Of a DNA stretch of 43,883 nt, positions 2,818-40,785 are shown in pieces. This stretch comes from a virus, in IMG/VR virus record IMGVR_UViG_3300030116_002904, positions 1-43,883 of that record, one strand, 5' to 3'. Position numbers and translations under genes: made by a program. The notes under the pieces were generated by a model. The model worked only from the letters and a program-made list of their open reading frames with translations. It had not been told where the DNA came from and did no database searches. Position 1 is the stretch's first letter, and each line of letters starts with the position of its first letter.

Positions 2818-3105
2818 CTACTCAACCTCCACGTTTATAGCGCCATTATCACCAACAGATAAAGCCCACAAGCCAACATCATTAGTAGCGGACACAGGTG
2901 CGTCATCAATAGTTAGTCGCCTAAAGCCGTCACTATCTAACGGTTGCGTGCCTTTTTCGCAAAGCCTGACTGTTTCTGACTCAGCCTTAACATTTAATGC
3001 AGTACCCAAAGAGACGGCAGGAAAACCAACTTGTGCGTTGAGTGCCGCATTTACGTCAACCCATACACCAGCTGGTAAATTAATATTCGGTCTAGTATCT
3101 GCCAT
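2818..3105 (-). CDS. Small virion-associated protein, 95 aa (putative)
   Basis: Starts MADTRPNINLPAGVWVDVNAAL, a style shared with small beta-sandwich phage structural proteins that precede fibre genes. An AAGAGG ribosome site lies 9 nt before ATG. The stop abuts the ATG of the 411-aa protein, so the two are co-translated. Probably a base or partner of the fibre-like protein; this is inference from context. Confidence 0.6.
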   Translation of the reverse strand: MADTRPNINLPAGVWVDVNAALNAQVGFPAVSLGTALNVKAESETVRLCEKGTQPLDSDGFRRLTIDDAPVSATNDVGLWALSVGDNGAINVEVE

Positions 3106-5421: not shown

Positions 5422-6513
5422 CTATTCAGGCATGTCTGAGTCAAGCAACTCAGCGCTATTAATTTGCGATGCACGACCGCGTGGTGCAGCGTAATCTGCA
5501 ACGTATTCAGCAGAGTTAGCAGCTAAAAATGCTTTTGCTTTAGTTAAGCCTAATGCTTTTGCATCTTCTGCGTCTAAGCCTTTGTTAAGCGCTGCAACTT
5601 GTTCAGCAACTTCGTTAAGCTCTTTATCTGCATTAGCTGTAAGCTGGTCTTGCAATGGCTTAACAGCGGCGTTAACAGCTTGCTCAACAATTGAAGTAAC
5701 TGCGCTTTCGTCTAAAACCTCACTAGCGTTTGCGGCAAGCTTAGTTTTTAGTAGTGTTTTAAGCTCATCGTCTGTGACTTGGCTATTAGTAGCTAAGCCT
5801 AGCGCTTCGAGCATTTCAGTACGATCCATAATAGGAGCCTCGTGGTTTGTGTTTAAATCAGTGTTATTGTAACCCATGCTGAATTTCTTAGCAAAAGCGT
5901 TAAGTGCGCGGGTTATGATTGTCTCTGTTGACTCTGGTTTGACGGGTTTAATATCTTCAAAGTTAAACGCCTGAACGTCTTCACCATTGAAACGCATAAC
6001 GGTAGCATCGCCACCCGCTGGCTTTTCAGATTCGTGAAGCATGGCCAAGTGGTCAAATTCCATGTTGCGAGCAATCATGTCGTAACCTTCGCCCGACTCG
6101 TTATTAGCTTCAAAGGTCAACCCAGTGCTAACGCCAATCGGCAAGTTATCATCAAGACGATTAGCAAAGTACTCACCCTGCTCACTTGCTCTTAGCTTTT
6201 TCTCGTCAATATCTGAGTTAGCATACCAAACACCGTCCTTATTGTACGTGTTAGTAATCTTGCCACCCGAATAGAAGTCGATTCCACTAGGTGAGAATAC
6301 CGACACGTTGCGCCCTTCTTCATCAGATGGGTGCGTTAACGTCATAGGCATACCGTTTAACGTACTCATGCCCTTGGCGTTTTCTTCTGCCGTGTATTTA
6401 ATTTTGTTCATCGTGGCATTATCGACCGTAATCGGAATACCTGTTATTTTGTATTTACCATCAACCTTTGTGACTTTCGTCTTAGCTGTATTGGTAGCTA
6501 GTATGATGCGCAT
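5422..6513 (-). CDS. DUF2213 prohead scaffold/protease-like protein
   Basis: 363 residues. The N-terminal 170 residues match DUF2213 by eye (GIPITVDNATMNKIKYTAEE, MTLTHPSDEEGRNVS, LPIGVSTGLTF, FDHLAMLHESEKPAGGDATV). The Ala/Glu/Leu-rich C-terminal half (about 210-340) is helical and scaffold-like. Members are thought to act as head maturation protease and/or scaffold; conserved His and Ser (MTLTHPS; GVSTGL) could be catalytic. The ATG lies immediately after the T-run of a terminator-like hairpin and behind an extended -10 promoter. Confidence 0.8.
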   Translation of the reverse strand: MRIILATNTAKTKVTKVDGKYKITGIPITVDNATMNKIKYTAEENAKGMSTLNGMPMTLTHPSDEEGRNVSVFSPSGIDFYSGGKITNTYNKDGVWYANSDIDEKKLRASEQGEYFANRLDDNLPIGVSTGLTFEANNESGEGYDMIARNMEFDHLAMLHESEKPAGGDATVMRFNGEDVQAFNFEDIKPVKPESTETIITRALNAFAKKFSMGYNNTDLNTNHEAPIMDRTEMLEALGLATNSQVTDDELKTLLKTKLAANASEVLDESAVTSIVEQAVNAAVKPLQDQLTANADKELNEVAEQVAALNKGLDAEDAKALGLTKAKAFLAANSAEYVADYAAPRGRASQINSAELLDSDMPE

Positions 6514-6518
6514 AAAAA

Positions 6519-6552
6519 AGCCCTATCGTTTTAAGATAAGGCTATTATATCA
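6519..6552 (-). promoter_or_regulatory. Extended -10 promoter overlapping a terminator hairpin at the DUF2213 start
   Basis: Read on the minus strand: TG (6552-6551), TATAAT (6549-6544), then stem AGCCTTATC / GATAGGGCT (6543-6519, one A:C-type mismatch) and T6 ending at the ATG (6513). The predicted start site (about 6537) falls in the 5' arm, so locally started RNA lacks the hairpin while upstream RNA would terminate. Confidence 0.6.
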
Positions 6553-19733: not shown

Positions 19734-19791
19734 TTGAAAAGGTTTTACCGTTGTTATATACTTAAATCTAAATTAGTAACAACGGTAAAAC
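19734..19791 (+). promoter_or_regulatory. Promoter with 15-bp inverted repeat before the HNH-AP2 gene
   Basis: TTGAAA (19734-19739), 17 bp, TATACT (19757-19762). GTTTTACCGTTGTTA (19742-19756) is in the spacer and its perfect complement TAACAACGGTAAAAC (19777-19791) is in the leader, 4 nt before ATG 19796. The -10 is in the 20-nt loop. Confidence 0.65.
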
Positions 19792-19795
19792 ACTT

Positions 19796-20335
19796 ATGAT
19801 TTCTCACCCATTATCTTATCAGCAATTCAAAGAGCTTATCAAGTACGAGCCTGATACAGGCGACTTGTTTTGGTTACCTCGAAACGACAAGTATGTTCAT
19901 CACACCCGCGTAAATTCTTGGAATACTAGGAATGCTAATAGAAAAATAACCACTATTGATAGTAAAGGTTATTTGCAAATTAACGTGCTCGGAAAAATGT
20001 ACCGAGGTCATCGAGTTGCTTGGTTTCTCCATTATGGTGAATGGCCCAACTTAATTGACCACATCAACGGGGTAAGGGACGATAACCGAATTGATAATAT
20101 GCGCTCAGTTGATGTTCAAAAAAACCACCTTAATCAAAAGCAAAGTAGTAAAAACACTAGCGGTGTGACAGGTGTCTATTTTAATAGGAAACGAGGCACG
20201 TGGTGTGCTCAAATGAAATTTAATAACCATACTTACCATCTTGGTAGTAGTAAGGACTTCTTTGAAGCTATTTGTTTACGCAAATCAGAAGAACGTAAGT
20301 TAGGGTTTTCATTAGAGCATGGAGTTAGAAAATGA
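19796..20335 (+). CDS. HNH-AP2 homing endonuclease
   Basis: 179 residues. An HNH core of the phage type (GHRVAWFLHYGEWPNLIDHING, RDDNRIDNMRSV, about residues 67-103) is followed by an AP2 DNA-binding domain (SGVTGVYFNRKRGTWCAQM, TYHLGSSKDFFEA, about 122-160). Such genes are mobile and lie between phage genes, here between VRR-NUC and helicase genes, which are neighbours in many phages. The end overlaps the helicase start by 4 nt. Confidence 0.9.
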   Translation: MISHPLSYQQFKELIKYEPDTGDLFWLPRNDKYVHHTRVNSWNTRNANRKITTIDSKGYLQINVLGKMYRGHRVAWFLHYGEWPNLIDHINGVRDDNRIDNMRSVDVQKNHLNQKQSSKNTSGVTGVYFNRKRGTWCAQMKFNNHTYHLGSSKDFFEAICLRKSEERKLGFSLEHGVRK

Positions 20336-25401: not shown

Positions 25402-25440
25402 TGATACAATAAAGCCATACTATTAACGTGTGGCTTTTTT
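25402..25440 (+). promoter_or_regulatory. Extended -10 promoter merged with a terminator hairpin at the portal start
   Basis: TG (25402-25403), TACAAT (25405-25410), then AAAGCCATAC-TATTAAC-GTGTGGCTTT (25411-25437, one mismatch) and T-run to 25440, with ATG at 25441. For early RNA this is an intrinsic terminator; RNA started at about 25417 lacks most of the 5' arm. Same layout as at 6519-6552. Confidence 0.65.
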
Positions 25441-26817
25441 ATGCTTAAAAATAAATTAAATTCTACATTTGCGGCAAATATGGCACAGCCAACAAGCCGC
25501 ACAAGAAACCTATCACAATTGTTTTCATCACCTGTTAATTTTGGTGATACAAACAGAGATGATTCAAAGTCGTATGGATACCCTGACGCTTTAACGTTTG
25601 ACATTATGTATAACGCATATAATCGAGGTGGATTCTTTAAGGCTATTGTTGATATTGTACCGGAGCGATGTTTTTCAGAGCAGCCAACTGTTATTGATGG
25701 TGCCGATGAAGATACAGAGCAAGACACGGCGTTTGAAATTGCATTTAAAGAGTTTGCACGTAAACATGATTTTTGGCGTGTAATGCGTGAAGCGTTTAAG
25801 CAATCAAGACTTGGTAGCTATTCGACTATTGTGCCTATCTTTACTGAAACAAGCTCCGATGCAAAGTTAATGGATGAGATAACAAGCGCGCGCAGCGTAT
25901 TAGCAATTAATCCGTTTTACCAAGCGCAATGTGAAGGCGCGACTGAATACGTTAGCGATTACTTTGACAAAGATTGGAATAAGCCTAAATGGTACGAGCT
26001 AAACCCTGCCGCACTTGCTGATAAGCAAATGACCAACGCAGAACAAAAGAATTTGCACCGCAGTCGTGTATTTGTTGTTACCAATGCAGTTGGCGCACAA
26101 ATAGAAGGTACACCCGCTTTAGAGGCTCCATTTAACGCCCTGTTTGATTGTAACAAGATACGCGGCGCATCCGCTGAAGGTTATCGCAAAAACGCCAAGC
26201 AACGTACTGTGATGAGTGCAAACGACCCTAAAGCCGCTCAAGCTATGGCAGCCAAGAAAGAAGAAATCGACCAAGCTATCGATGACTTTGAGAATGGCAT
26301 AAACAACTATTTAAAACTTGCTGGTTCAAGTGTTAGCTCGCTTCAATCAAATCTAGCTGACCCAACTGGCGCGTTTACCATTGCAATGCAAGAGGCGTGT
26401 GCAGCACAGCGCATACCAGTTACTGAATTAATCGGATTTATGACGGGTGAGCGCTCAAGCACTGAAAACTCAAGCGCATTTAGTAAGCGTTTACGAAGTG
26501 AGCAAAATAACGAATACGGACCAACTATCATTAAGTTTTTACAATGGCTTGTTGACTTAGGTGTACTGCCTGAGCCTAAAGATGAAATCAAAATTAAATG
26601 GCCTGATATTTCTGAGCCTACCAAAGCTGAAAAGCTGGCAAATGCCAAGTCCATGATTGAGCAAAATAAGATTGCGTATGAAGCGCAAGAGGAAGAGCCG
26701 TGGACAATGGAGGAAATACGCGAAGCAGCAGGCGCAGATAAAGAAAAGCCGAAAAGCGAATATGAAACGTTAGGCCCTAAAGATGAGTTAACGCTTGATG
26801 AAAATACGCCAGATTAA
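25441..26817 (+). CDS. Portal protein (DUF1073 family)
   Basis: 458 residues. DUF1073 signature: YNAYNRGGFFKAIVDIVPER (about 58-77), FREAFKQSRLGSYSTI-type region, RSVLAINPFYQAQ, and the late helix region QEACAAQRIPVTELIGFMTG followed by ERSSTENSSAFSKRL. The portal forms the dodecameric DNA gate at one capsid vertex. The ATG sits at the end of a T-run; a second ATG at residue 14 is an alternative start. It is on the opposite strand from, and 15 kb away from, the terminase. Confidence 0.9.
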   Translation: MLKNKLNSTFAANMAQPTSRTRNLSQLFSSPVNFGDTNRDDSKSYGYPDALTFDIMYNAYNRGGFFKAIVDIVPERCFSEQPTVIDGADEDTEQDTAFEIAFKEFARKHDFWRVMREAFKQSRLGSYSTIVPIFTETSSDAKLMDEITSARSVLAINPFYQAQCEGATEYVSDYFDKDWNKPKWYELNPAALADKQMTNAEQKNLHRSRVFVVTNAVGAQIEGTPALEAPFNALFDCNKIRGASAEGYRKNAKQRTVMSANDPKAAQAMAAKKEEIDQAIDDFENGINNYLKLAGSSVSSLQSNLADPTGAFTIAMQEACAAQRIPVTELIGFMTGERSSTENSSAFSKRLRSEQNNEYGPTIIKFLQWLVDLGVLPEPKDEIKIKWPDISEPTKAEKLANAKSMIEQNKIAYEAQEEEPWTMEEIREAAGADKEKPKSEYETLGPKDELTLDENTPD

Positions 26818-39446: not shown

Positions 39447-40019
39447 TTAAATCATCCCATTCTGTTTCATGTACTCGACCATAGCTTTTTGCTCACTCGC
39501 CTTTGCTGCTTCGGCTGCTTGCTTCTTGTGTGCCTCGGGGTACTTAGTGCGCATACGCCTAACAAATTGTGTCATTGTCATTTTTGCCGCTTCATCGTAG
39601 CTTAAGTTAAAATGCTCAACAGCTAAGTCTATGTATTCGTATGCGTCAAATTCTGTTAGTGGCTCGCCTTCACCACCTTTAAAGTCAACCTTGCCAACGA
39701 TTCCATGAAGCACGCAGTGATTGGCTAGCACGATTAAATCGTTAATTTGCTCTGGTGAAACGTCTAGTTTATTTATGCCGTCTTCAGTCATTGATAAATC
39801 ACCAAACAATTCGCGTGGAAAATCTTTATCGCAACAAGACTGAAGGATAGAAAAAGCAGAGCTATAAACATCAAGAGGGTCATCGCTGTGCAAGCCGTTA
39901 ACCGTGTTTATTATTTCTTCTGGTGTACCTATGGCTGATATGTTTATAAAAGATGGCACGATGATGTATTTAACATCACCGTACTCTATACAGCCGTGAC
40001 CGTACTCTTTTAAAAGCAT
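39447..40019 (-). CDS. Tail assembly chaperone (single frame)
   Basis: 190 residues between tail tube and tape measure. N-terminal half acidic and helical (gpG-like), C-terminal half FDAYEYIDLAVEHFNLSYDE, MTMTQFVRRMRTKYPEAHKK (gpT-like). No slippage is needed because both parts are in one frame, unlike lambda G/GT. Start overlaps the tail-tube stop. Confidence 0.75.
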   Translation of the reverse strand: MLLKEYGHGCIEYGDVKYIIVPSFINISAIGTPEEIINTVNGLHSDDPLDVYSSAFSILQSCCDKDFPRELFGDLSMTEDGINKLDVSPEQINDLIVLANHCVLHGIVGKVDFKGGEGEPLTEFDAYEYIDLAVEHFNLSYDEAAKMTMTQFVRRMRTKYPEAHKKQAAEAAKASEQKAMVEYMKQNGMI

Positions 40020-40531
40020 TACGCAATAGTTTCCGTTTGGTATGCTGGGTTAGTGCTATCGTCTGTTGAAATCATTACAAAGTTGAAATCACCAGTGTTA
40101 ACATCTTCATTACCGTATGAGCGTGAAACGTCATTAACTAAACAGAATACATATTCTTTAATGCCTAGTTGTGGGTTTGTAAGCTCAAGCCATAATGTAG
40201 CTTGACGACCCGCTGTAATTTCAGTGCGGCGGTAAATTCGCAGTTCTTCCTGTGTACTGATATCAACAATGTCAGCCGATGTAAATACAGAAACAGGAAT
40301 TTCCATACCTAAACCAGTTTGTAATGTTTTCTGATATGCGCCTGATGTGTCGTTATTCGCATCAGTAGTACGTGTTGACTCGTTGATTGCTTTGGTTGTT
40401 GTATAACCAAGCGGCTTGTAAGTTAGTGGGGTTGTAGCTGTTGAAAGTGGATCTTCTGAACCACAAGCTTCTGCCCAGCGCACAATTAGATTGCGGCCAA
40501 TGTCTAAATCTTTTTGACAACCTGTTGCCAT
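40019..40531 (-). CDS. Major tail tube protein
   Basis: 170 residues, beta-rich: TGCQKDLDIGRNLIVRWAEA, TLQTGLGMEIPVSVFTSADI, LWLELTNPQLGIKEYVFCLV, GDFNFVMISTDDS. Position directly before chaperone and tape measure identifies the tube protein. Strongly expressed genes need tight timing, and this one alone has a 13-bp hairpin over its ribosome site plus its own promoter. Confidence 0.82.
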   Translation of the reverse strand: MATGCQKDLDIGRNLIVRWAEACGSEDPLSTATTPLTYKPLGYTTTKAINESTRTTDANNDTSGAYQKTLQTGLGMEIPVSVFTSADIVDISTQEELRIYRRTEITAGRQATLWLELTNPQLGIKEYVFCLVNDVSRSYGNEDVNTGDFNFVMISTDDSTNPAYQTETIA

Positions 40532-40533
40532 AA

Positions 40534-40578
40534 TAATTACTCCGAAGTTAAATGAATTAATTCGGAGTAATTATACCA
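40534..40578 (-). promoter_or_regulatory. Tail-tube leader: extended -10 promoter inside a 13-bp inverted repeat that covers the ribosome site
   Basis: TG (40578-40577), TATAAT (40575-40570). TAATTACTCCGAA (minus, 40573-40561) pairs perfectly with TTCGGAGTAATTA (40546-40534), 14-nt loop. The GGAG ribosome site (40544-40541) is in the second arm, 3 nt before ATG (40531). RNA started at about 40563 keeps only three bases of the first arm. Confidence 0.75.
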
Positions 40579-40596: not shown

Positions 40597-40622
40597 AAAA
40601 CCCACCTTTTACAGTGGGTTTT
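40597..40622 (-). terminator. Intrinsic terminator upstream of the tail-tube promoter
   Basis: AAAACCCAC / GTGGGTTTT, 9-bp perfect stem with 8-nt loop; on the minus strand followed by CTTTT. It isolates the tail-tube promoter from the small unit upstream. Confidence 0.85.
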
Positions 40623-40631
40623 AGAGGGTTG

Positions 40632-40730
40632 GAATAGAGAAGAGTGTATAGGTTGTGCAAGCTTACTTTGTTGACCGCTTGAGTTGGGCTGATTTACTTT
40701 CTGCTGCACACCTATAAACTCTATTTATAT
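40632..40730 (-). ncRNA. Possible structured RNA: long imperfect inverted repeat
   Basis: AATAGAG near 40632 pairs with CTCTATT near 40723, and TATAGG.TTGTGCA with TGCAC.ACCTATA inside it, giving a roughly 100-nt imperfect hairpin just upstream of the terminator. It overlaps the end of the 40-aa reading frame. It may be an RNA element or coincidence. Confidence 0.3.
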
Positions 40731-40785
40731 CTGTTAAGTGATTGCGTTTAAATTCTATCTCACGACCGTATTTAAACAACACCAT
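40663..40785 (-). CDS. Possible small protein or C-terminal remnant, 40 aa
   Basis: ATG 40785-40783, TAA 40665-40663. Sequence is protein-like (FKYGREIEFKRNHLTDINRV, then YRCAAESKSAQLKRSTK) but the ATG lacks a ribosome site. The frame extends upstream without ATG as LDAIIDK, which suggests the C-terminal half of a broken gene. The 24-aa frame upstream could be the N-terminal half, in another frame. Confidence 0.4.
   Translation of the reverse strand: MVLFKYGREIEFKRNHLTDINRVYRCAAESKSAQLKRSTK

Follow-up and report, generated by a model that had tools for sequence, protein, structure and literature searches.

The leaders of the IS10 and IS50 transposase genes silence outside transcription via a hairpin that is formed only by RNA started outside the gene, and the transposase must stay low. 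In phage T4, the promoter of gene e (as well as those of soc, 49 and I-TevI) lies in the DNA of a hairpin 5' arm, such that read-through RNA is sealed and locally started RNA is not; the hairpin lowers synthesis from gene e about 100-fold, and the structure is absent in some T4 relatives (PMC3014915).

We analysed an IMG/VR virus record of 43,883 bases from a marine phage (the window, by which we mean this whole stretch of DNA), whose close relatives are the Pseudoalteromonas phages XCL1123 and H103. The leader of its tail-tube gene shares the start-in-hairpin geometry of T4 gene e, and an earlier interpretation made from the letters only (the sequence-only reading) was right to draw the parallel with e and soc (PMC3014915); in both phages the structure varies among relatives. 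T4, however, relies on late promoters of its own (TATAAATA), recognised by a late sigma factor, whereas the promoter in the window is a sigma-70 extended -10 of host type and not such a late promoter. The read-through RNA is early in T4, whereas in the window a terminator stands in front and the upstream genes are structural; at the window's portal and coat operons the hairpin itself is a predicted terminator, again unlike gene e. As in IS10 and IS50, the hairpin would shield a gene from impinging transcription, but this gene encodes a very abundant structural protein, and the effect would be insulation and not repression. Ordinary phage terminator-promoter junctions have the same order as is seen upstream of the tail-tube gene, terminator then promoter, whereas at the portal and coat genes the order is reversed and the elements overlap, with the -10 preceding the terminator and the predicted start lying within the terminator's 5' arm. 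We propose, with a probability of roughly 0.6, that the tail-tube leader is an insulated, self-contained expression leader, and that the same rule holds in a merged form at the portal and coat operons.

Anatomy and predicted folding of the tail-tube leader

The gene and its leader comprise the following features, the first of which bears out the earlier naming of the gene.

40019..40531, minus strand: major tail (tube) protein gene, 170 aa, PHROG 1407 (E 1.9e-22)
40597..40622, minus strand: intrinsic terminator just before the promoter, with a T-run that fills the -35 region
40570..40578, minus strand: extended -10 TGGTATAAT, seen in the sequence, without a good -35
40561..40574, minus strand: hairpin 5' arm (ATAATTACTCCGAA), overlapping the -10 and the 6-nt discriminator
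40562..40563, minus strand: predicted start of transcription, at G40563 or A40562 (7-8 nt past the -10)
40554..40563, minus strand: perfect palindrome GAATTAATTC, starting at the predicted +1, single copy in the genome
40540..40543, minus strand: Shine-Dalgarno GGAG, entirely within the 3' arm, 8 nt from the ATG
40533..40546, minus strand: hairpin 3' arm (TTCGGAGTAATTAT), seen in the sequence

On the minus strand the leader reads AGTGG TATAAT TACTCC GAATTAATTC ATTTAACTTC GGAG TAATTATT ATG, with the ATG at 40531-40529. The sequence-only reading described a 13-bp perfect inverted repeat with GGAG in its 3' arm, 3 nt from the ATG. The perfect repeat exists and GGAG is inside that arm, but the repeat is 14 bp long (arms 40574-40561 and 40546-40533, loop of 14 nt), and it is the end of the 3' arm, not GGAG, that comes close to the ATG, at 1 nt. 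Folding adds four further A-U pairs and one bulged C inside the stem. Perfect stems of at least 14 bp with a loop of up to 60 nt can be counted three times in the window (two distinct repeats), as against 0.01 per Markov-shuffled genome, and the local folding z-score at the hairpin, computed on the plus strand, is -4.3. The extended -10 alone is not rare, its 80 near-matches in the window being the expected number; TGNTATAAT is found at the equivalent position in nearly all relatives. No known RNA family in Rfam matched across the tail-tube leader. A genome-wide repeated operator was considered and rejected: TTACTCCGAA, the sequence of the arm, occurs no more often than expected, and each palindrome is present in a single copy. 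Another perfect inverted repeat of the window (19742-19791, 15 bp, 20-nt loop, GTTTTACCGTTGTTA) just precedes a gene at 19796 encoding an HNH endonuclease (PHROG 99).

With RNA parameters, the calculated cost of opening GGAG is 14.8 kcal/mol in read-through RNA and 0.7 kcal/mol in locally started RNA, which places the ribosome site within a stable hairpin in the former and agrees with the earlier claims that the 5' arm overlaps the extended -10, that RNA started at about 40563 lacks this arm and has a free ribosome site, and that read-through RNA is sealed. By sequence geometry as well as folding, the predicted start falls within the 5' arm. Opening costs for individual starts, calculated on sequences cut slightly differently from those behind the values above, are 0.8 kcal/mol for G40563, 1.3 for A40562 and 2.1 for C40564, and rise to 5.0 for C40565 and 10.7 for A40568; the predicted switch would thus fail if transcription started merely 2-3 nt upstream. 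Purines 7-8 nt from the -10 are normal sigma-70 starts, and the tail-tube start is therefore expected on the open side. Of 200 random 6-nt discriminators, none matched the sealing of the window's own.

Directly upstream of the tail-tube gene lie co-oriented genes of the tail-completion and neck/head-closure types, as judged from PHROG matches and the annotations of H40/1 and Vibrio 1.247, so that read-through RNA would come from the same structural module. The sequence-only reading had suggested that the hairpin delays translation of the tube protein until a late promoter fires, early read-through transcripts being silent. The geometry is indeed that of T4 gene e (PMC3014915), but with structural genes upstream, a promoter that resembles an ordinary host sigma-70 extended -10 site, and neither a phage RNA polymerase nor a sigma factor in the subset of window ORFs scanned, such a timing switch appears quite unlikely, and we dropped this part of the earlier proposal. 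Since the upstream genes are structural, insulation of operon dosage fits better than a delay and is the more likely purpose.

Inferred from sequence and folding, the start sites, termination, translational effects and purpose would combine as follows. Host sigma-70 polymerase would start at about 40563, within the hairpin 5' arm, and the local RNA would thus be unable to form the hairpin and leave GGAG free. RNA from the upstream head/neck and tail-completion genes would mostly be stopped at the terminator at 40622-40597, and any read-through RNA that leaked past would carry the whole hairpin and go untranslated. The tube protein would then be made only from its own promoter, its dose being set independently of its neighbours. 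A role of the hairpin as sole or main barrier to read-through is not supported, because this strong terminator lies immediately upstream and has equivalents with different letters in 16 of the 18 leaders compared; with the terminator in place, the tail-tube hairpin may add little.

Two further observations were made upstream of the tail-tube gene. In phage C7 (L010 2616-2687), a tRNA gene separates the tail-completion gene from that of the major tail protein, at a position that holds ninX or nothing in other relatives. At 40640-40760 on the minus strand, the window contains a conserved element, AAAGTAAATCAGCCC...CAAGCGG..CAACAAAGTA, with pairing arms on either side, which is also present in phage HS2 (L013, about 2990-3065); it may be a structured RNA and had no match in Rfam.

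Sealing among the leaders of relatives

The leaders of 18 tail-protein genes were compared. Their recurrent features are a terminator, TGNTATAAT, a discriminator of 6-7 nt, a palindrome at the predicted +1, a ribosome site and the ATG. Sealing varies. Opening costs in read-through and local RNA, 14.8 and 0.7 kcal/mol in the window, are 9.4 and 0.7 in H103, 9.8 and 3.4 in TW1, and 6.9 and 1.7 in L204. They fall to 5.7/1.4 in C7, 5.6/1.3 in L025, 5.4/1.3 in L095, 5.2/1.1 in L017, 4.9/1.0 in L019 and 3.8/1.2 in L020. In H40/1, L014, L005, L015, L026 and L043 the read-through cost is about 2-3 kcal/mol, and H40/1, L014, L015, L026 and L043 show little sealing, with a difference of 0.9-1.6 kcal/mol between the two RNAs. 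No sealing was seen in L021/L022 or in the enteric tail-protein leaders, where the promoter is present. Given this spread, sealing is a tendency with strong cases and no fixed feature, and strict conservation of the hairpin is not supported: leaders of the H40/1 type hardly have any sealing, and L005, with 91% tail-protein identity, has largely lost the hairpin and most of the sealing with it. In the nearest relatives, changes in the 5' arm go uncompensated, H103 having one mismatch.

One alternative is that terminator, extended -10 promoter and a short leader are all that functions here, and that the long hairpin of the window group arises as a by-product of a pyrimidine-rich discriminator that faces a purine-rich ribosome site. 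In its favour, conservation of the terminator and the promoter far exceeds that of sealing, L005 has lost sealing, and the enteric leaders manage without. However, swapped pyrimidine-rich discriminators seal less well: the leaders' own discriminators outperformed those swapped between leader groups with p values of 0.0007-0.005 when the window group was included and 0.006-0.023 without it, values that ignore common descent. Hairpins of different sequence also speak against a by-product. In TW1 (33% tail-protein identity) the hairpin is rebuilt with different letters, and in L204, which was found after the swap test and stands outside it, CCTAGA pairs with TCTAGG, in place of ACTCCGAA and TTCGGAGT in the window, a degree of sealing reached by 0.25% of random discriminators. 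As the portal and coat leaders, moreover, keep the logic nearly everywhere (see below), we regard the by-product explanation as improbable, though it is the strongest of the alternatives. That local RNA is open and read-through RNA closed is still the best reading of the anatomy and predicted folding, and the leaders of the portal and coat genes lend it further weight.

L095 carries a window-type leader on a different tail protein, which suggests that the leader can move as a unit. On one contig, IMGVR_UViG_3300007276_000011 (L201 and L203), there are two major-tail-protein-like genes, and an insulated leader is found on only one of them.

Portal and coat-operon leaders

Two other leaders in the window combine the same parts more tightly.

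6514..6552, minus strand: coat-operon leader, with TGATATAAT at 6552-6544, terminator arms at 6543-6535 and 6527-6519, a T-run to 6514 and the ATG at 6513
25402..25440, plus strand: portal leader, with TGATACAAT at 25402-25410, terminator arms at 25411-25420 and 25428-25437, a T-run to 25440 and the ATG at 25441

The coat leader (6552-6511, minus strand) reads TGATATAAT AGCCTTATC TTAAAAC GATAGGGCT TTTTT ATG, and the portal leader (25402-25443, plus strand) TGATACAAT AAAGCCATAC TATTAAC GTGTGGCTTT TTT ATG. In both, the terminator 5' arm directly follows the -10, the 3' arm carries ribosome-site-like purines (the match, GTGG, is weak in portal leaders) and the U-run forms the spacer to the ATG. 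The hairpins have GC-containing stems of 9-10 bp with -11 to -12 kcal/mol, followed by T-runs, as in intrinsic terminators. Opening the ribosome site costs 13.3 kcal/mol in read-through and 5.0 in local RNA for the coat leader, and 11.9 and 2.0 for the portal leader; overall, leaders of this kind require 12-15 and 2-5 kcal/mol, respectively. Because the stem comes directly after the -10, RNA started 7 nt downstream would carry only a small part of the 5' arm, and neither termination nor sealing is expected for it.

The rule came from visual inspection and was put to the test afterwards. A strict scan for promoters in terminators then returned two sites in the window, exactly those of portal and coat, compared with 0.013 per shuffled genome. 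Two to three sites each were found in the related Pseudoalteromonas phages H40/1, C7, TW1, XCL1123 and H103, and none in pIS4-A or Yersinia P400; apart from a third match in H103, these sites again belong to portal and coat genes and, in C7, also to a minor head gene. A looser scan discriminated poorly (4 sites vs 1.2 in shuffles) and was abandoned. The design is present in 22 of 24 coat and portal loci fetched from relatives, several of which are duplicates of one leader. Inner stem pairs change together with pairing kept, and a leader's own arms pair better than swapped ones (p 0.0002 for coat and 0.018 for portal, common descent being ignored in both values). Similar leaders occur in Vibrio phages BUCT006 (portal), 1.123.O and 1.023.O and in Acinetobacter phage WCHABP1 (head protein), where the start codon is uncertain since the annotated start lies 20 codons upstream in frame; having been found by sequence similarity, these leaders show breadth and are no independent test. 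A blastn match in Acinetobacter phage AB1 (L243) was discarded, being an ordinary terminator and no leader.

There is perhaps an even chance that promoter, intrinsic terminator and ribosome site form one element here, a shared insulated leader of about 40 nt that serves structural operons as a general insulation device. Transcription would start inside the terminator 5' arm, the 3' arm would provide the ribosome site and the U-run the spacer, so that the sealing hairpin would itself be the terminator, and the element would terminate and seal foreign transcripts while passing its own. The tail-tube leader would represent this element in split form, a palindrome lying at +1, and the element would extend to unrelated phages of Pseudoalteromonas, Vibrio and Acinetobacter. 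A literature search, with most subscription journals outside its coverage, found no paper describing such a promoter-terminator-ribosome-site arrangement, and as far as searched the merged form is undescribed. An element of this kind suggests how a multi-operon phage could keep the dose of each structural operon independent without extra factors, and offers a natural 40-nt insulator consisting of a promoter, a one-way terminator and a ribosome site. It would also mean that the logic of T4 gene e need not be confined to the timing of lysis, nor to late promoters of the T4 type.

The palindrome at the predicted start

Most tail-tube leaders compared have a perfect palindrome that starts 6-7 nt after the -10, and one is also found in Aeromonas pIS4-A, Klebsiella VLCpiS13a and Salmonella Skate (in Skate with one central base). 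Its sequence differs by group, being GAATTAATTC, GGATTAATCC, GATAACGTTATC, TGGTAATTACCA or GTTTAGCTAAAC, or GTTAGCAGCTAAC with one central base; such palindromes lie at 40554-40563 of the window and in L162, L163, L164, L204, L206 and L207, phages of enteric hosts included. The palindrome was spotted by eye first and tested afterwards: in eight genomes, hardly any extended -10-like site other than that of the tail-protein gene has a palindrome placed in this way. Candidate roles are a dimeric protein's site and a 5' RNA stem.

If a DNA-binding dimer used the palindrome as an operator controlling the promoter, the longer repeat would be an extension of that site. The start of perfect palindromes of several sequences at the predicted +1 in relatives is consistent with this, as is the self-complementarity of the inner four bases in palindromes of even length, which an RNA hairpin does not need. 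Yet a single copy per genome (among those checked) is unusual for a regulator's site, the sequence differs between phages, and an operator leaves the pairing of discriminator and ribosome site unexplained; we thus hold it to be unlikely, somewhat more so than the by-product explanation. Alternatively, the palindrome could fold into a short stem at the 5' end of the RNA and make an abundant mRNA more stable, as for ompA or papA, a precedent that appears among the references of PMC3997798. Its first base coincides with the predicted 5' end, and the Skate and H40/1 types can form stems of 4-5 bp, but the window palindrome allows only 3 bp and the predicted fold uses other pairs, making a stabilising stem improbable to about the same degree as the timing switch.

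A host promoter motif consisting of the -10 plus GATAACGTTATC was also considered and rejected, as its 34 matches were scattered over bacterial genomes, a number of the size that chance would give (about 15 by our estimate), and none was in Pseudoalteromonas. Lastly, GATAACGTTATC is found at a predicted +1, directly after a terminator, before an unrelated phage gene (MAALSDYLESGLLSHIF...) in L027, L033-L036 and L038 and at L035:4670-5434.
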